Shown: positions 3,717 to 48,254 of the stretch, in pieces | Layout of the letters: every line of letters begins with the position of its first letter | How positions within the stretch are numbered: position 1 is the first letter of the stretch | DNA from: Candidatus Gemmiger faecigallinarum | GTDB lineage: Bacteria > Bacillota > Clostridia > Oscillospirales > Ruminococcaceae | Direction of reading: 5' to 3' | NCBI GenBank assembly: GCA_019120395.1 | Contig: DWVD01000006.1 | Span: 1-49,222 of the forward strand | Length of the DNA stretch: 49,222 nt | Translations under genes and position numbers: made by a program | The notes under the pieces: generated by a model | What the model was told of the DNA's origin: nothing | The model's input: the letters and a program-made list of their open reading frames with translations, nothing else | The model's database searches: none

Positions 3717-5507
<1,791 letters not shown>

Positions 5508-37866: not shown

Positions 37867-39120
37867 ATGTATCAGGACATGATGGACACCATCGGCTTTG
37901 TGGGCCGTCAGGACCCGGAACTGGCCGCCGCCATGGACCGGGAACTGGCCCGCCAGCGCCAGAACATCGAGCTGATCGCCAGCGAGAACATCGTCTCGCC
38001 CGCGGTCATGGCCGCCATGGGCAGCGTGCTAACCAACAAGTACGCCGAGGGCTACCCTGGCCACCGCTACTACGGCGGCTGCCAGTATGTGGACGAGGTG
38101 GAGCAGCTGGCCATCGACCGGGCCTGCAGGCTGTTCGGCGCAAGATACGCCAACGTCCAGCCCCACTCCGGCGCGCAGGCCAACCTGGCCGTCTACTTTG
38201 CGCTGCTCAACGTGGGCGATACCGTCATGGGCATGGACCTGTCCCAGGGCGGCCACCTGACCCACGGCAGCCCCGCCAACATGAGCGGCAAAAACTACAA
38301 CTTTGTCTCCTACGGCGTGGACGACAACGGCTTCATCGACTACAAGGCGCTGGCCAAGCAGGTCAACAAGGTGCGGCCCAAGCTGCTGGTGGCGGGCGCT
38401 TCCGCCTACCCCCGCGCCATCGACTTTGAAAAGCTGGCCGAGATCGCCCACGGCTACGGCGCCATGCTGATGGTGGATATGGCCCACATCGCCGGCCTGG
38501 TGGCGGGCGGCGTGCACCAGAACCCGGTGCCCTACGCCGACGTGGTCACCACCACCACCCACAAGACGCTGCGCGGCCCCCGCGGCGGCCTGATCCTGAC
38601 CAACAACGAGTACCTGATCAAGCGCATCAACTCGGCCATCTTCCCCGGCACCCAGGGCGGCCCGCTGGAGCACATCATCGCCGCCAAGGCCGTCTGCTTC
38701 GGCGAAGCCCTGAAACCGGAATTTAAGACCTACGCCCAAAAGATCGTGGACAACGCCCAGGCCCTGGCCGCGGCGCTGACCGCCCGCGGCGTCAAGCTGG
38801 TGTCCGGCGGCACCGACAACCACCTGATGCTCATCGACCTGCTGGACGAGGAGTGCACCGGCAAGGAGCTGGAGCACAACCTGGACGAGGTGCACATCAC
38901 CGCCAACAAGAACACCGTCCCCGGCGAGAAGCGCAGCCCCTTTGTCACCAGCGGCCTGCGCATCGGCACCCCGGCGGTCACCACCCGCGGCATGGGCCCC
39001 GCCGAGATGCAGGTCATTGCCGACTGCATCGCCGACTGCATCTTTGACTTTGAGGCAAAGAAAGCCGACGTGGCCGCCCGCGTCGCCGCTCTGGTGGAAC
39101 AGTTCCCACTGTACCAGTGA
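37867..39120 (+). CDS. glyA: Serine hydroxymethyltransferase
   Basis: PLP enzyme of 417 residues interconverting serine and glycine with tetrahydrofolate, the main source of one-carbon units. The PLP lysine is Lys233 in [38 protein letters not shown] and [13 protein letters not shown] are typical. The ATG at 37867 has GAGAGGAG; upstream in-frame starts lie inside the preceding intergenic region and lack support. It lies in tandem with hisB; both draw on or feed one-carbon/purine metabolism. Terminator at 39246. Confidence 0.97.
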
Positions 39121-40035: not shown

Positions 40036-41091
40036 TCACCGGGCGGCGGTGCGCTTTTTGCCCGGACGAAGCGCCAGGCCGACAAGCCTTTGCCCCACCC
40101 AGGCCGCGGCGAAGGAACCCGCCAGGCAGGCCGCAAGGCCGGCGCACCACAGCGCGGGCCCGGCCTGCAGCGCCTGCAGCCGGGGCGCCAGCACCAGCGT
40201 AATGCCCACATGGTGGATCAGGTAGACGCCGTAGCACAGCCGCGCCGCCCGGTGGGCCGCAGCCGCCGCCCGGCCGCGCATCAGCTGGCCAAGCTGCAGG
40301 GCGGGCCAGAACAGCCCCAGCGCCGCCAGGCTGTACAGATGATATGCCGGCAGCCGTGCCAGCGCGCCCAGGCCCGCCGCGGCCAGCAGCGCCCCGCTGG
40401 CCGCCCAGGGCCGCCGCCCGGCCCGCTGCGGGGCGGCCAGGGCGCGGCCGAAAGCGGCGCCGGCGGCAAAGGCCGGCAGCTGCCCGCAGACCGTGTGGAA
40501 CACGTCCACGCCCTGGGGCGTCACAAAGGGGGACAGGCCCCATACCAGCAGGACACAGGCCGCCATCACGCCGCGGCCCGCCCGGCTGCGCCAGGCGAAC
40601 AGCAGAAGCGGGAACAGGCAGTACAGCAGGATCTGGCAGCCAAGATACCACTCGCCGATCTTGTAAAAGGTGGGGGTCCAGGGCTGGACAAAGCCGTCGA
40701 CGCCCAGGACCGAGAATACCAGCCGCCAGGGGGCCACCCCGGCGTTGTTGTGGTGCAGCACGTCGCTGTACAGGAACAGCGGAAAGAAAAACAGCCAGAA
40801 CAGCGGGTAGATGGCCAGGAACCGGCTTTTGACATACTCGGCCGGGCGCCAGGGCGCGGCGGCGTATTTCAGGCCCAGGCAGGCGCCGGACAGCGCCGTC
40901 ATCCAGAACACCGCCCCCTGCACCAGCGCGGCGCAGGCGCGGGAAGTGAAAAACGGCGGCGAAAACACCCCCGCCGCCGCGGTCTCGACGCCATAATGAT
41001 AAAGCACGATCCACAGGATCGCCGCCAGCCGGATCCCGTCCAGGCCCGGCAACGTTTTTCGCTGCAAAGGGACCACCTGCCATTCCGCCAA
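40036..41091 (-). CDS. Acyltransferase family 3 (OafA/YrhL-like) membrane protein
   Basis: Polytopic membrane protein of about 351 residues with roughly ten helices, in the family that O-acetylates surface polysaccharides and peptidoglycan. The N-terminal LPGLDGIRLAAILWIVLYHYG carries the conserved arginine and histidine of the family (R/K...H), and YLGCQILLYCLFPLLL is also typical. The start is uncertain: the frame opens at a TTG (41089-41091) only ~8 bases after the predicted transcription start, while a GTG at 41074-41076 has a weak GGCGG upstream. It lies divergent from the Dlt-like acylation cassette, which suggests related envelope decoration. Confidence 0.82.
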   Translation of the reverse strand: MAEWQVVPLQRKTLPGLDGIRLAAILWIVLYHYGVETAAAGVFSPPFFTSRACAALVQGAVFWMTALSGACLGLKYAAAPWRPAEYVKSRFLAIYPLFWLFFFPLFLYSDVLHHNNAGVAPWRLVFSVLGVDGFVQPWTPTFYKIGEWYLGCQILLYCLFPLLLFAWRSRAGRGVMAACVLLVWGLSPFVTPQGVDVFHTVCGQLPAFAAGAAFGRALAAPQRAGRRPWAASGALLAAAGLGALARLPAYHLYSLAALGLFWPALQLGQLMRGRAAAAAHRAARLCYGVYLIHHVGITLVLAPRLQALQAGPALWCAGLAACLAGSFAAAWVGQRLVGLALRPGKKRTAAR

Positions 41092-41336: not shown

Positions 41337-42854
41337 TTGCATCATATTCTGGAACTTCTCGACGCGGCGGCGGCCCGCAGGCCCGACGGCCCCGCCGTCT
41401 GCGACGAGCGCTGCTGCCTGACCTGGAGCCAGGTGAAGGCCGAGGCCGAGGCCGTCGGCACGGCCCTGGCAAAGCTGGACGTACAGCGCCGGCCGGTGGC
41501 GCTGTATCTGGCCCGCGGCGCCGCCTGCCCGCTGGCCATGCTGGGCACGCTGGCCGCCGGCGGCTTTTACGCGGTGCTGGACCCCGCCCAGCCGGCGGAC
41601 CGCATCCAACGCATCCTGCAGCGCCTGCGGCCGGCGGTCATCCTGACCGACGACGCCGACTGCGACGCGGCCGGCAGCGCCGGCGCGCAGGCGGGCGTGC
41701 CGGTGCTGCGCTATGAGCAGGCGGCGCAGACGGCCCCGGACGCCGCCCTGCTGGCCGGCGCGCGCGCCGGGACCATCGACGCCGACCTGGCCTACGTGCT
41801 GTTCACCTCCGGTTCCACCGGCGAGCCCAAGGGGGTGGCCGTGACCCACCGCAACGTGCTGGCTTACAGCGAATGGGCGGTGGAGGCGTTCCGCTTTGAC
41901 GAGACGACGGTTTTTGGCAACCAGACGCCTTTTTACTTTTCCATGTCGGTCACCGACCTGTTCGGCGCGCTGCGGGCGGCGGCGCGGCTGGAGATCCTGC
42001 CCCGGCGGCTGTTCTCCTTCCCGGTGCAGCTGCTGGAATATCTGACGGCCCGCGGGGTCAACACCATCTACTGGGTGCCCACGGCGCTGGGCATTGTGGC
42101 CAACTGGAAAGCGCTGGACTACACGGCGCCGCCCCCGCTGCGCGCCGTCCTGTTTGCCGGCGAGGTGATGCCCACCCCCTGCATGAACTACTGGCGGCGG
42201 CATTATCCGGACGCGGTGTTCGCCAACCTGTACGGTCCCACCGAGACCACCGACATCTGCGCTTACTATGTGGTGGACCGGGACTTTGCCGACGCCGAGC
42301 CGCTGCCCATCGGCCGCCCCTGCGAAAACTGCGGTGTGCTGCTGCTGAAGGACGGCCGCGCCGCCGCCCCCGGCGAGGAGGGCGAACTGTGCGCCCGGGG
42401 CAGCTTTGTGGCGGCAGGATATTACGCCATGCCGGACAAGACCGCCGAGAGGTTCGTCCGCAACCCGCTGCAGCCCGACTATCCCGAGACCATCTACCGT
42501 ACCGGAGACCTGGCCAGGCTGGACGGCGACGGCCTGCTGCGCTACTGCGGGCGGATCGACAGCCAGATCAAGCACCTGGGCTACCGCATCGAGCCGGGCG
42601 AGGTGGAGGCTGCCGCCCAGGGCCTGCCCGGCGTGGAGGCGGCGGTCTGCCTGTACGACGGGCAGCGGGCGCGGCTGGCGCTGTTTTACCAGTCCCGCCG
42701 CAAGCTGGACGACGCCCTGCGCGCCCACCTGGCCGGCGCGCTGCCTCCCTACATGCGCCCGGCGGTGCTGCACCGGATGCGCGCCATCCCCCAGAACGCC
42801 AACGGAAAGCTGGACCGGGCCGCGCTGCGCGGCCTGCTGGACGAGCTGGAATAA
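41337..42854 (+). CDS. Adenylation enzyme, DltA-like, with atypical substrate pocket
   Basis: Cytoplasmic ligase of 505 residues that activates an acid with ATP and loads it on the carrier protein encoded next. Core motifs are intact: LFTSGSTGEPKG (157-166), NLYGPTE (297-303), YRTGDL, and catalytic Lys491 in NANGKLDR. DltA and amino-acid adenylation domains have Asp in FDxS to hold the alpha-amino group; here the motif is FSMS (Ser202). DltA's FCGE cysteine is alanine (FAGE, Ala274). Asp306 follows YGPTETT. These changes argue against D-alanine, while operon context argues for a Dlt-like job. The TTG start at 41337 is seven bases after AAGGAGG. Confidence 0.85.
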   Translation: MHHILELLDAAAARRPDGPAVCDERCCLTWSQVKAEAEAVGTALAKLDVQRRPVALYLARGAACPLAMLGTLAAGGFYAVLDPAQPADRIQRILQRLRPAVILTDDADCDAAGSAGAQAGVPVLRYEQAAQTAPDAALLAGARAGTIDADLAYVLFTSGSTGEPKGVAVTHRNVLAYSEWAVEAFRFDETTVFGNQTPFYFSMSVTDLFGALRAAARLEILPRRLFSFPVQLLEYLTARGVNTIYWVPTALGIVANWKALDYTAPPPLRAVLFAGEVMPTPCMNYWRRHYPDAVFANLYGPTETTDICAYYVVDRDFADAEPLPIGRPCENCGVLLLKDGRAAAPGEEGELCARGSFVAAGYYAMPDKTAERFVRNPLQPDYPETIYRTGDLARLDGDGLLRYCGRIDSQIKHLGYRIEPGEVEAAAQGLPGVEAAVCLYDGQRARLALFYQSRRKLDDALRAHLAGALPPYMRPAVLHRMRAIPQNANGKLDRAALRGLLDELE

Positions 42855-42905
42855 GCCCGGCCCGCCGGCCGCAGAAACTGCAAAAACCAAAAAGGAGAAT
42901 GTCCT

Positions 42906-43142
42906 ATGCATACCAACGAAGAGATCCTGTCCGTCCTGGCCGAGGTCAAACCCGGCCTGACCCCCGCCCCCGACGAGGAACTGATCAAGACCGGCCTGCT
43001 GGATTCGGTGGAAGTCATGCAGCTGGTCATGGCGCTGGGCGAGGAATTTGACGTCGAGATCACCCCTGCCGACCTGCGGGAGGAAAACTTCCACACCGTC
43101 GCGTGCATCCGCGCGCTGATCGACCGGCTGGAGGAGGAATGA
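42906..43142 (+). CDS. Acyl/peptidyl carrier protein, DltC-like
   Basis: Small acidic four-helix protein of 78 residues. The phosphopantetheine serine is Ser34 in GLLDSVEVMQLVMAL, and the rest (LGEEFDVEITPADLREENFHTV) fits the DltC/ACP fold. It should carry the acyl group made by the upstream adenylation enzyme to the membrane acyltransferase encoded downstream. AAAAAGGAG lies nine bases before the ATG. The position between the A- and B-type genes differs from the usual dltABCD order. Confidence 0.93.
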   Translation: MHTNEEILSVLAEVKPGLTPAPDEELIKTGLLDSVEVMQLVMALGEEFDVEITPADLREENFHTVACIRALIDRLEEE

Positions 43143-43222
43143 CCCCGCCGTTCGGCCTGACCCGGCCCGGCCGCTGAGACCCGGCGGCTGTCCGGCCCCT
43201 TTTGCCCAATGCAGGTGAAACC

Positions 43223-44791
43223 ATGTCCTATACCTCGTTTGTTTATCTGTTCCTGTTCCTGCCCGCGGTGTGGGCGCTGTGGGCGGTGCTGCCCCAGCGC
43301 GGCCGCCCTGCGGTGCTGCTGGGGGCCAGCCTGCTGTTTTACTGGCTGACCTCGGGGCGGTACATCGTCTGGATCCTGGCCGCCGCGGCGGTCACCTGGG
43401 GCGTCGGCCTGCTGCTGGGCCGCCTGGACGATATCCTTTCCACCGCCAAACCGGAACTTTCCGCCGCAGGCCGCAAGGCGGTCAAAAAACAGCTGGCCGC
43501 CGCCAAATCCCTGGCGGTGGGCGGCGGCGCGGCCATCCTGCTGGCGGTGTTCCTCTGGCTGAAGTACTGGCCGTTTGCCGCCCGCAGCATCGCCGCCGTG
43601 CTGGACCGCCTGCCCGGCGCACTCTCGCTGACCGTGCCCAGCTACACGCTGCCCCTGGGGCTGAGCTTTGTCACGCTGATGGCCGTGGGCTACCTGGTGG
43701 ACGTGCACCGGGGCAGCTGCCGCCCGGCCCGGCATTACTGGCAGGTGCTGTTGTTCCTGTGCTTCTGGCCGCATGTGGTGGAAGGCCCCTTCGACCGCTG
43801 GGACCGGCTGTCCGGGCCGCTGCTGGACCCGCCCCGCCTCTCCTACAAAAACCTGACGTTCGGCGTGCAGCGCATTGTCTGGGGCCTGTTCAAAAAAATG
43901 GTCATTGCCGACCGCGCCAACATGTACGTCAAGGCGGTGTTCGACGATTACACCCAGTATTCCGGCATGGCGGTGGCGCTTGGCGCGGTGCTGTACACGC
44001 TGCAGCTGTACGCCGAATTTTCCGGCTGCATGGACATTGTGCTCGGCTCGGCCGAGTGCTTCGGCGTGCCGCTGGCGGAAAACTTCCGGCAGCCTTTCTT
44101 TTCGCGCACGGTGGGCGAGTTCTGGCGGCGCTGGCACATGACGCTGGGCGCATGGCTGCGGGAATACCTGTTCCAGCCGCTGATCCTGTCCGCGCCCTGG
44201 AAAACGCTGGGCCGGTTCTGCCGCACCAGGTTCGGCGCGGCGGCCGGCCGCAGCCTGCCGGTGTGGGCGGCGCTGGGCGTGACCTGGGCGGCCATCGGCT
44301 GGTGGCACGGGGCGGGGTGGATGTACCTGCTCTATGGCATGTACTACTACATCCTGCAGCTGCTGGGCGAGATCGCAGAGCCGGTGTGGACCGCGCGGTT
44401 CCCCGGGATCACGGCGCTGCGCAAGCGCCGCTGGTACCAGGCGCTGCAGATGCTGCGCACCTTTGTGCTGGTGCTGGGCGGCATGCTGATCTTCCGCTCC
44501 AACGGCACGCTGGCGGCCATCGCCATGTTCAAAAGCCTGGCGGTGCCGTACACCGGCTCGCTGCTGATCAAACTGGACGCCCGGGATATGGCGGTGCTGG
44601 CCGCCGGCGCGGTGCTGATGCTGGCGGTGGACCTGCTGCATGAGCGAGGCGTCGCCATCCGCAATACGCTGGCCCGGGCGCCGCTGCCGCTGCGCTGGGC
44701 GGTGTACATCGGCGGCGTGCTTTTGATCCTGGTGTTTGGCGCCTACGGCGACAACTACGACCCGGCGGGCTTTATCTACGCCCAATTCTGA
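43223..44791 (+). CDS. MBOAT membrane O-acyltransferase, DltB/AlgI-like
   Basis: Polytopic membrane protein of 522 residues that takes the acyl group from the carrier protein and passes it across or along the membrane. MBOAT landmarks: YAEFSGCMDIVLGSAECFG, ENFRQPFFSRTVGEFWRRWHMTLGAWLREYLF with His305, and the catalytic His362 in GWWHGAGWMYLLYG. The ATG at 43223 has AGGTGA; a TTG at 43202 in the same frame is unlikely. It lies in a tight run between the carrier-protein and SGNH genes. The last helices (EIAE... onward) are longer than in DltB and closer to AlgI/PatA-type proteins. Confidence 0.9.
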   Translation: MSYTSFVYLFLFLPAVWALWAVLPQRGRPAVLLGASLLFYWLTSGRYIVWILAAAAVTWGVGLLLGRLDDILSTAKPELSAAGRKAVKKQLAAAKSLAVGGGAAILLAVFLWLKYWPFAARSIAAVLDRLPGALSLTVPSYTLPLGLSFVTLMAVGYLVDVHRGSCRPARHYWQVLLFLCFWPHVVEGPFDRWDRLSGPLLDPPRLSYKNLTFGVQRIVWGLFKKMVIADRANMYVKAVFDDYTQYSGMAVALGAVLYTLQLYAEFSGCMDIVLGSAECFGVPLAENFRQPFFSRTVGEFWRRWHMTLGAWLREYLFQPLILSAPWKTLGRFCRTRFGAAAGRSLPVWAALGVTWAAIGWWHGAGWMYLLYGMYYYILQLLGEIAEPVWTARFPGITALRKRRWYQALQMLRTFVLVLGGMLIFRSNGTLAAIAMFKSLAVPYTGSLLIKLDARDMAVLAAGAVLMLAVDLLHERGVAIRNTLARAPLPLRWAVYIGGVLLILVFGAYGDNYDPAGFIYAQF

Positions 44792-44807
44792 GAAAGGAGA
44801 CACTGCC

Positions 44808-45815
44808 GTGAACGCTGCAAAAAAAGCCGTGCTGCGCATTGTCGCCTTTTGCCTGGCGCTGCTGGCCTGCGTGCTGCTGGCGGGCAATTACCTGATGCCC
44901 CACTCCAACCGGTATCTGGAAGGGTACACGGCCGGCGGTATTCTGGGCGAGGACTTTGACACCATCGACGTGCTGGTCATCGGCGACTCCAACGCCGCCC
45001 AGGGCATCGCCCCGATGCAGTGGTACGAGGAGTACGGCTTTACCGGCTATACCTACGGCGCGGCCTGGTTTACGGTGTATAACGCTTACTACCGGCTCAA
45101 GGACATTTACCAGGAACAGGCCCCGCAGGTGGTGGTGCTGTGCACCGAGATGGTGTACAGCAAGCGGGGGAGCGAGACTTATTTCGACAGTGCCGTCAAC
45201 AACATTGCCGGCGAGCTGATGCCGCTTTTGCGTTACCACGATAACTGGAAAGAGCTCAACGCCGAAAATTTCCTGCAGCCGCACGATTACAGCTGGCGGG
45301 ACGCAAACAAGGGCTTTATGCCGCTGACCGGCGTTGTGCCGTACCAGGGCGGCGACTATATGTACGACCAGGGCGTGGCGTCCATCCCGCTGCTGGCGCA
45401 GATCTACCTGGACCGCATCGTGGCCCTGTGCGAGGAGCAGGGCAGCGAGCTGCTGCTGATTACCGTGCCTGCGGCCACCAGCTGGAACCGCAGCCGGCAC
45501 AACGGGATCCAGGCTTATGCCGATGCGCGCGGCCTGACCTACATCGACTATAACCTGGACCCGCAGGGGATGTTGGGGCTGGACTGGTCCACCGACACGC
45601 CGGATACCGGCAGCCACCTGAACGTGCTGGGGGCGGTCAAGCTGACGGATGCGCTGGGCGAGTACCTGACCGGGCGTTACAGCCTGCCCGACCACCGGGG
45701 GCAGGCCGGTTACGAGCACTGGCAGCAGGACGCCGAGGCCTGGGCTGAGACGATGGCGAAAGCGATCCCCGGCGCGCAGAAGGCCGCCGGGCAGACGCCC
45801 GAAAGCGCCGCATGA
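44808..45815 (+). CDS. Membrane-anchored SGNH-type protein (DltD/AlgJ-like role), GTG start
   Basis: Protein of 335 residues with one N-terminal membrane helix (about 8-27) and an outer domain. Block I is VLVIGDSNAAQG, with Ser61 as likely nucleophile; the C-terminal catalytic pair is in DTGSHLN (Asp266, His270). Such proteins pair with MBOAT enzymes to place acyl groups on extracellular polymers. The GTG at 44808 is chosen because GAAAGGAG lies seven bases upstream and no ATG is near. The C-terminal ~40 residues are Ala/Gln-rich. It closes the four-gene cassette; no clear terminator follows before the next promoter at 45860. Confidence 0.85.
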   Translation: MNAAKKAVLRIVAFCLALLACVLLAGNYLMPHSNRYLEGYTAGGILGEDFDTIDVLVIGDSNAAQGIAPMQWYEEYGFTGYTYGAAWFTVYNAYYRLKDIYQEQAPQVVVLCTEMVYSKRGSETYFDSAVNNIAGELMPLLRYHDNWKELNAENFLQPHDYSWRDANKGFMPLTGVVPYQGGDYMYDQGVASIPLLAQIYLDRIVALCEEQGSELLLITVPAATSWNRSRHNGIQAYADARGLTYIDYNLDPQGMLGLDWSTDTPDTGSHLNVLGAVKLTDALGEYLTGRYSLPDHRGQAGYEHWQQDAEAWAETMAKAIPGAQKAAGQTPESAA

Positions 45816-46502: not shown

Positions 46503-46676
46503 GCAAACCCGGCGGGAAAGAGAAACCGGAAAATGAGAAACATAAAAAGAGGGTTAGAAATTTGAGCGCACGCCGGTGTGCGGATACTCCTTAATTTTTC
46601 GGCTCTGATTCCGGATTGCTGCTTTCTGCTTCCTGTCCCGCCTGACCCGTCCCGCACATCTTTTGGGGGTATTACC

Positions 46677-48254
46677 ATGAACCTGGACCTGACGACTTTT
46701 TCCCCGGCCGAGCGCAGCACCCTGCAGCTGCGGGCGCTGTACGAGCAGGCCGGCTACCGCAAATACCGCATGGCGCGGTTTGAGGAATATGCGCTCTACC
46801 AGCAGTACGAGAGCTTTCTGCCCGACCCGCAGGTGGTCACCTTCACCGACCTGGACGGCAAGCTGCGGGCCATCCGCCCCGACGTGACGCTGTCCATCGC
46901 CAAAAACGCCCAGCCCGCCCCCGGCAGCTGCAAAAAGTACTATTATACCGAGCAGGTCTGCCGCCCCAGCCGGGAGAGCCACACCTTTGCCGAGATCAGC
47001 CAGATGGGGCTGGAATGCCTGGGCGCGGTGGGCGCGGCCCAGCAGGCCGAGGTGGTCCGCCTGGCCCGCCAAAGCCTGAACGCCCTGGGCGAAAGCAGCG
47101 TGCTGGAGCTGGGCCACATGGGTTACGTCACCGCCTGGCTGGACGGCGTGGGGGTGGCCAAGGCCGACCGCCCCGCCCTGCTGGCCATGCTGCAGCAGAA
47201 AAACCCCCACGGCCTGCTGGAGGCTGCCCGCGCCGCCGGCCTGCCCGACGCCGACGCCCGCGACCTGGTAAGCCTGCTGGAGCTGCACGGCTCGCTTTCG
47301 GCCACGCTGGCCGCCGCGCGGGGCCGCTGCCGGTTTGACGGCCAGCGCGCCGCGCTGGAGGAGCTGACCGCTTTGCAGAACGACCTGGGCGAGGCCGGCC
47401 GCGGCCTTTGCTTGGATTTGAGCCTGGCCGGCGACATGGACTACTACAACGGCCTGGTGTTCACCGGCTACCTGTCCGGCGCGGCCCGCCCGGTGCTCAA
47501 GGGCGGCCGCTACGACCTGCTGATCCGCCGGTTCACGCCAGGGGCGGGGGCCATCGGGTTCGCGCTGTATCTGGACGAGCTGGACCGCCTGGCGGCCCCG
47601 CTGCCGCCCGTTCGCGCCGGGGAGGAGGGCACCTGGCTGAACATCGCCCTGCCCAAGGGCCGCCTGGGCGACAAGGCCTACGCTTTGCTGGCCGGGGCGG
47701 GCTACGGCGCCGGAGATTATACCGACAGCCGCAGGCTGGTGGTGGAAAATCCCGACGCGAAGGTCCGCTACTTTCTGGTCAAGCCCAGCGACGTGGCCAT
47801 CTACGTGGAGCACGGCGCGGCGGACGTGGGCCTGGTGGGCAAGGACATCCTGGCCGAGAGCGGCGCCGACGTCTACGAGCTGCTGGACACCGGCATGGGC
47901 CGCTGCCGCATGTGCGTGGCCGGGCCAAAGACCTTTGCGGACGACGAGAGCCGGGCGCTGCGGGTGGCCACCAAGTTTGTCAACATCGCCCGCGCCCACT
48001 ACGAGGGCACCGGCCGGGAGATCGACATCATCAAACTGAACGGCTCCATTGAGCTGGCGCCGATCCTGGGTTTGTCCGACGTGATCGTGGACATTGTCGA
48101 GACCGGCACCACCCTGCGGGAGAACGATTTGGCCGTGCTGGAGGAGTTCATGCCCATCTCGGCGCGGCTGATCGCCAACAAGGCAAGCTATAAATTCAAG
48201 CAGAGCGCCATCACGGCCCTGCTGCAGGCCATGAAGGAGGCGCTGGCAAAATGA
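46677..48254 (+). CDS. HisZ-HisG fusion: ATP phosphoribosyltransferase regulatory and catalytic domains
   Basis: First step of histidine synthesis (ATP + PRPP to phosphoribosyl-ATP), 525 residues. Residues 1-~312 are HisZ, a histidyl-tRNA-synthetase-like regulatory domain (RPDVTLSIAKN, YYNGLVFTGYL, LKGGRYDLLIRRF). Residues ~320-525 are short-form HisG (WLNIALPKGRLGDKAY, VGLVGKDILAE, PRPP loop VDIVETGTTLREN). In most bacteria these are separate subunits of a hetero-octamer; here one reading frame joins them by a short linker (PVRAGEEG). The ATG at 46677 follows GGGGG. It overlaps hisD by four bases. The 174-base leader has a CGCACGCC/GGTGTGCG hairpin but no T-box I can recognise. Confidence 0.93.
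   Translation: MNLDLTTFSPAERSTLQLRALYEQAGYRKYRMARFEEYALYQQYESFLPDPQVVTFTDLDGKLRAIRPDVTLSIAKNAQPAPGSCKKYYYTEQVCRPSRESHTFAEISQMGLECLGAVGAAQQAEVVRLARQSLNALGESSVLELGHMGYVTAWLDGVGVAKADRPALLAMLQQKNPHGLLEAARAAGLPDADARDLVSLLELHGSLSATLAAARGRCRFDGQRAALEELTALQNDLGEAGRGLCLDLSLAGDMDYYNGLVFTGYLSGAARPVLKGGRYDLLIRRFTPGAGAIGFALYLDELDRLAAPLPPVRAGEEGTWLNIALPKGRLGDKAYALLAGAGYGAGDYTDSRRLVVENPDAKVRYFLVKPSDVAIYVEHGAADVGLVGKDILAESGADVYELLDTGMGRCRMCVAGPKTFADDESRALRVATKFVNIARAHYEGTGREIDIIKLNGSIELAPILGLSDVIVDIVETGTTLRENDLAVLEEFMPISARLIANKASYKFKQSAITALLQAMKEALAK

Follow-up and report, generated by a model that had tools for sequence, protein, structure and literature searches.

The window analysed here, the 49,222 nucleotides of contig DWVD01000006.1 (assembly GCA_019120395.1) from Candidatus Gemmiger faecigallinarum, contains an intact four-gene cassette, the probable function of which is to decorate a surface polymer with a small acid. 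Its open reading frames, all on the + strand, encode in the order A-C-B-D a stand-alone adenylation enzyme (A), a carrier protein (C), a membrane-bound O-acyltransferase (MBOAT; B) and an SGNH-fold protein (D). A variant route of attachment is probable, and the decoration may be something other than D-alanine. We put at roughly 0.55 the probability that the acid is a small, amino-bearing one anchored by Asp306 of A, within a carrier-dependent extracellular acylation machine; a hydroxy acid comes second in our order of candidates and plain D-alanine third. We found no description of this cassette among the top-listed papers of the open-licence PMC literature searched.

A probably carrier-fed cassette with a fused acyl-shuttle motif

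Pfam assigns A, C and B to the AMP-binding (E-value 7.2e-67), PP-binding (4.8e-07) and MBOAT (6e-10) families, respectively. D has no Pfam or NCBIfam match; its predicted model has the SGNH fold, and DltD is not among the 50 fold matches listed. Together with the open reading frames, these assignments bear out the four proteins named in an earlier, sequence-only reading of the same DNA. The residues picked out there for the carrier, the MBOAT and the SGNH histidine are conserved across the aligned rows: Ser34 of C in 59 of 59, His305 and His362 of B in 100% and 98%, respectively (54 rows with a letter there; both align with DltB), and His270 of D in 46 of 46 (in the longer readings of B and D these histidines become 312, 369 and 294). 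Their conservation supports the proposal that the cassette performs extracellular acylation. Ser61 of D holds less generally: the motif is GDS in the window and in 18 genus rows, but GDC, GTS or GAS in many wider relatives.

Within the genus set used for ortholog counts (35 genomes, the window's own included), A, C and B adjoin in 19 of the 19 loci that are not cut inside A, out of 20 in total. Across 44 loci from named records (L041-L084, mainly but not solely Clostridia), contiguous A-C-B-D is the commonest contiguous layout (17 loci; the remaining 27 are partial, split, reordered or cut at contig ends), so the gene order, first taken for an oddity, is not one.

The cassette probably works like Dlt (DltA, DltB, DltC and DltD, with DltX; D-alanylation of teichoic acids), with which it shares both conserved MBOAT histidines, but it is not a Dlt member, because three curated Dlt cut-offs are missed: A scores 240.7 bits against 559.85 for DltA (TIGR01734), B 149.4 against 375 for DltB (TIGR04091), and C 29.8 against 52.35 (TIGR01688) or 40.5 against 68 (NF003464) for DltC. 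It differs from Dlt further in its A-C-B-D order, in its pocket and in its shuttle. The only PDB sequence relatives of B at E 0.001 are two DltB sequences. Judged by PDB sequence scores, DltA (3fcc, 191.8 bits) is no closer a relative of A than are the domains of non-ribosomal peptide synthetases (NRPSs; 194.0 bits for the best single LgrA domain), and a fold ranking of the model of A places NRPS A domains level with or above DltA.

The most informative feature of the cassette, and one that the sequence-only reading missed, is the shuttle. B ends in FIYAQF, which matches the FxYxxF acyl shuttle and is preceded, in a C-terminal extension, by two hydrophobic segments. The motif is present in 19 of 19 genus rows, the window included (18 with the strict form F.Y..F and one with W.Y..F); among 36 further full-length B rows, 29 have the strict form and 35 match a looser pattern (a count that excludes three short rows and one duplicate contig). 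The motif is missing from four DltB-like proteins of related genomes, which are encoded next to DltA-like enzymes and are 376-379 residues long. As laid out in the available part of PMC12148441, the carrier of Dlt feeds DltB, and the shuttle tyrosine lies on the separate DltX (FxYxxF), whereas in the other MBOAT layout there is no carrier, the donor is acyl-CoA and the motif is fused to the MBOAT, which carries it on two additional helices. Like the MBOAT-SGNH O-acetylation pairs of the PatA-PatB type, the cassette has FxYxxF fused to its MBOAT; unlike them, as they use acyl-CoA without a carrier (PMC12148441, in part), it has the carrier C and the enzyme A adjoining B. A fused shuttle beside a carrier and its loading enzyme is a hybrid that is not among the layouts in that part of PMC12148441. 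It appears that systems combining a carrier feed with a fused shuttle do exist and that they are frequent in our sample; for loci in which B does not adjoin A, only a shared neighbourhood links the two features.

The adenylation pocket

At 340.9 bits, A exceeds the cut-off (317.4) of TIGR01733, the curated model for amino-acid adenylation. The numbering of A was related, by alignment via the DltA-like enzyme of L029 (TIGR01734, 495 bits), to that of Bacillus cereus DltA (3fcc). Ser202, Ala274 and Asp306 are present as first read, and they stand where DltA has Asp197, Cys269 and Val301 (Table 1). In the latter enzyme, the amine of D-alanine contacts Asp197, Thr297 and Val301, and the cysteine governs chirality (PMC8972799, in part); the C269A substitution loosens the preference for D-alanine (PMC4176424, in part). 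The contact made by Val301 would necessarily be via its backbone.

The sequence-only reading had proposed looking for other genomes with the same FSMS and FAGE residues, and these exist: the FSMS, FAGE and GPTETTDIC residues are identical in the A orthologs of 20 of the 35 genus genomes, the window included, and are therefore not a product of chance. The ten-residue code SMTYLALDIK, read at GrsA positions 235, 236, 239, 278, 299, 301, 322, 330, 331 and 517, is common to all 20 orthologs (one of which is cut before the last position). Six further loci, which carry the un-DltA-like pocket into other families, complete a set of 26 with Ser202: L041, an Oscillospiraceae record (SMTYLALDIK); L050, a Butyrivibrio record (SMLYLALDTK); and four loci outside the genus, L154 and L156 (SMLYLALDIK), L155 (SMLYMALDIK) and L157 (SMSYFALDIK). 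The last four were retrieved by searching 391 genomes of the class and 396 of the family with a DNA pattern; a match in G741 (L152) is left out of the counts, and at two other matches, L158 and L159, a related enzyme is absent.

All 26 loci have Asp306. In this set, nine columns have a residue that is fixed (>=95%) yet rare (<=10%) among the 46 rows of the enzyme group with Asp235 retained; two of the columns (202 and 203) define the Ser202 group, and the other seven played no part in its definition. Three of these seven (245, 274 and 307) are positions of the ten-residue code, an enrichment with a hypergeometric P of ~9e-5 if the kinship of the rows is ignored. Among 37 A domains from outside the enzyme group, Asp occurs at position 235 in 37 and at position 330 in 1. 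Both aspartates are present in the DNLFLCLDAK-like type (L038, L054, L059, L073, L074 and L077; L038 and L077 are a single contig), and Asp306 may therefore be older than the loss of Asp235. In a careful tree, the Ser202 types form a basal grade, and a single Ser202 clade is not rejected (approximately unbiased test, p-AU 0.122), so that one loss of Asp235, or a loss followed by a regain, are both possible and the order of events is left undecided.

The side chains of Met203, Tyr245, Leu272 and Leu298 (GrsA positions 236, 278, 299 and 322) fill the pocket and leave little room, and the acid is therefore likely to be small. Moreover, a carboxylate in a pocket that has no basic side chain except the catalytic lysine suggests a cationic ligand. 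The view that the pocket differs from that of DltA stands, given the replaced residues; the acid itself may or may not lack an alpha-amino group, because Asp306, at the amine-contacting position of Val301, could hold the alpha-amine of an ordinary small amino acid from the other side. The counter-case set out in the sequence-only reading, a clear preference for D-alanine or another Asp standing in for the missing one in a normal D-alanine pocket, is neither borne out nor excluded. On this alignment, the 'missing' aspartate may have been shifted across the pocket rather than lost.

Table 1. Features of the cassette, with positions in the window
Feature	Position	Strand	Basis or remark
A, stand-alone adenylation enzyme, 505 aa	41337..42854	+	code SMTYLALDIK
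Ser202 codon of A (= B. cereus DltA Asp197, GrsA Asp235)	41940..41942	+	alignment
Ala274 codon of A (= DltA Cys269, GrsA Ala301)	42156..42158	+	alignment
Asp306 codon of A (= DltA Val301, GrsA Ile330)	42252..42254	+	alignment; amine contact of Val301 from PMC8972799, in part
C, carrier protein, 78 aa, phosphopantetheine site Ser34	42906..43142	+	Pfam PP-binding; conservation of Ser34
B, MBOAT, DltB-like core (His305, His362) with C-terminal extension	43223..44791	+	conserved ATG at 43223
FIYAQF, fused FxYxxF acyl-shuttle motif at the C-terminus of B	44771..44788	+	motif defined in PMC12148441, in part
D, SGNH-fold protein, N-terminal hydrophobic helix, Ser61 (GDS), His270	44808..45815	+	GTG start at 44808

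Route, acceptor and candidate acids

Going by its family, A would adenylate a small acid and load it as a thioester onto the Ser34-phosphopantetheine of C. By analogy with DltB/DltX and PatA, B would take the acyl group from the carrier at the cytoplasmic face, using His305, and place it on the tyrosine of its own C-terminal FIYAQF, the motif itself being observed; on the outer side, Ser61 of D would then receive the group from the acyl-tyrosine, and with it D would esterify a hydroxyl of a surface glycopolymer. Within A, Asp306 would replace Asp197 as the anchor, most likely for the ammonium group of glycine, alanine, beta-alanine or a similar small amino acid. We know of no MBOAT-SGNH layout like that of the cassette in the AlmE pathway. 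AlmE itself, which loads glycine for the modification of lipopolysaccharide, offers a parallel as a DltA-like enzyme that uses a small amino acid in a surface modification (PMC11253843, in part). As to the acceptor, a PF00884 protein is encoded by 31 of the 35 genus genomes; the copy in the window genome has GacH, a phosphoglycerol transferase, as its closest PDB match and matches lipoteichoic acid synthases more weakly. PF04464, of the wall teichoic acid polymerase type, is found in 0 of the 35.

A number of observations weigh against a small amino acid held by Asp306 within such a machine. Four cassette-bearing genomes (G009, G010, G032 and G033, 81-94% complete) have no PF00884 protein, which makes lipoteichoic acid less likely to be the only acceptor. 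That there is no separate DltX is not firmly established, the detection power of the scan being unproven: between positions 38000 and 49222, the MBOAT is the only frame that ends in F.Y..F, and the same scan of six DltA-like loci (L029 and L032-L036) returned one 20-residue frame, in L035; the fused motif, on the other hand, is firm. The enzymes of L059b, L075, L079 and L083 are also without Asp235, and they are without Asp306 too. McyG activates phenylalanine without Asp235 (PMC11253843, in part), and therefore the code alone proves nothing. The remaining points favour, or tell against, particular acids.

One such point concerns the small residue that known alpha-hydroxy-acid A domains have at position 235, Ala or Gly in the two enzymes on which the pattern is based (PMC11253843, in part). 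Ser202 agrees with it and is small in all 26 loci, a set that it partly defines; by analogy, a hydroxy acid would fit Ser202 at least as well as an amino acid. A small alpha-hydroxy acid (D- or L-lactate, glycolate or glycerate), the hydroxyl of which would be accommodated or hydrogen bonded by Ser202 and which would yield an uncharged hydroxyacyl ester, is accordingly the foremost alternative, albeit an improbable one. For such domains, the available part of PMC11253843 reports no Asp at 330, as opposed to Asp306 here in 26 of 26 loci; burying its carboxylate would be costly without a cationic ligand; A passes an amino-acid model; and no gene of hydroxy-acid metabolism is recognised within the cassette. 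More broadly, NRPS A domains for non-standard acids (TycA engineered for phenyllactate, EnSyn A1 and McyG) share with A the change of Asp235 to a small or aliphatic residue (PMC11253843, in part), but A is a stand-alone enzyme with a separate carrier and with Asp at 330 throughout its set.

Ordinary D-alanylation, in which D-alanine would still be bound, with Asp306 taking over the amine contact and the substrate unchanged, comes lower in our order, and we regard it as unlikely. Asp306 does occupy an amine-contacting position of DltA (PMC8972799, in part), the pocket residues point to a small substrate, and the cassette is perhaps the only such system present: the window genome (assembly of 2.58 Mb, 82.85% complete) has no second match to A at E 0.001, and matches above the DltA cut-off are absent from 100 relatives, though DltA-like enzymes of 446-495 bits occur there. 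The residue that governs chirality, however, is Ala here, a replacement that relaxes the preference for D-alanine in DltA (PMC4176424, in part); at five of the ten code positions, the Ser202 set has a fixed residue unlike that of the Asp235 types in its enzyme group, two of these differences following from how the set was defined; and the TIGR01734 score of A lies below the cut-off.

In a special case of the favoured reading, with a different product, Asp306 would hold a beta- or omega-amino acid such as beta-alanine. The aspartate for the alpha-amine is gone, an aspartate lies further along the pocket, and the residue at 236 (Met203) is bulky, as in beta-amino-acid A domains (PMC11253843, in part). 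The known domains of this kind, however, keep Asp235 and have a beta13-beta14 loop that is one residue shorter (same source, in part), and A does neither: its loop is of normal length, with no gap after GPTE relative to DltA-like enzymes. Additionally, PanD (PF02261) is found in 0 of the 35 genus genomes, other routes to beta-alanine not having been searched, and beta-alanine made by PanD is an unlikely substrate. We consider this special case quite unlikely as a whole, and retain a small amino-bearing acid anchored by Asp306 as the preferred reading.

Pocket types, neighbourhood and significance

The pockets of the 44 sampled loci fall into at least five types. Within the genus, the Ser202 type occurs in 20 of the 35 genomes, the DVK type in two, the DAK type in two and the DNL type in G011, beside its Ser202 type (weaker A-domain matches, e.g. 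in G008, G014, G021 and G023, are excluded from this typing). The DAK and DVK types (A proteins of L021-L027 and L043-L084) have a lysine at GrsA position 239. A lysine at this position occurs in glutamate-activating domains, and the DAK and DVK cassettes may, to go by this residue, load acidic amino acids. All 17 SGNH rows of the DAK type carry GDC in place of GDS (L043, L046, L047, L049, L051, L053, L056, L057, L060, L066-L069, L072, L076, L080 and L084), which suggests a cysteine nucleophile tied to one adenylation type; GDC is also seen in the D proteins of L042 and L062, which have other pocket types.

The cassettes look like exchangeable accessory modules. The flanks of the window resemble housekeeping genes, and no substrate-making gene travelling with the cassette was recognised in the flanks. 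In 16 of the 20 genus genomes with the cassette, a frame resembling ilvE (identified by eye) is found 150-626 bases upstream and in the same orientation. As an obligatory partner, ilvE was rejected: in the window genome, G012 and G026, it is on another contig and the cassette sits in a shared his-gene neighbourhood, and in G011 no ilvE match was found. Of four cassette-free ilvE flanks (L168-L171), only that of G013 (L171) retains the downstream order of the cassette-bearing G027 (L127), namely, HAD, ilvE, DJ-1, helicase, kinase and regulator (named by eye); G013 also lacks the esterase-like gene that follows the cassette in G027.

Directly upstream of the cassette in the window, an Acyl_transf_3 (AT3) membrane acyltransferase is encoded on the - strand (40036-41091), and an AT3-like frame, recognised by eye, follows the cassette of L041. 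Downstream, a 558-residue frame (46578-48254, + strand) matches both tRNA-synt_His (HisZ type) and HisG, an apparent HisZ-HisG fusion. By eye, the Ser202-type relative of L050 (Butyrivibrio) is in a region with glycosyltransferase-like frames, one frame (4345-5304) resembling an AAC(3)-type N-acyltransferase, and the DNL-type relatives L054 (5-10 kb) and L074 (5.6-8.6 kb) stand beside ketoacyl synthase III-like and carrier-like frames, with a short-chain reductase-like frame in L054 too. The neighbourhoods of L054 and L074 would represent a different use of the same enzyme family.

Overall, we think it fairly probable that the cassette belongs to a widespread, mainly clostridial class that is neither Dlt nor PatAB: carrier-fed, with a fused shuttle and interchangeable adenylation enzymes, through which related gut bacteria would put different acids on the same kind of polymer, the type found in the window trading the amine-binding aspartate for one across the pocket and loading an acid other than D-alanine. 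Its hybrid layout and the diversification of its pockets are the parts of most specialist value. The combination of a carrier with a fused shuttle uncouples pairings that have been treated as linked, carrier with DltX and acyl-CoA with fused shuttle (PMC12148441, in part), and offers a compact system, with a single protein for both carrier recognition and the tyrosine relay; the set of pocket types, in turn, provides a ready series for probing how tolerant the MBOAT and SGNH steps are. Surface-polymer esters determine wall charge and the way in which hosts and antimicrobial peptides perceive the cell; if the acid is not D-alanine, gut Clostridia bear wall decorations that have perhaps not been looked for.

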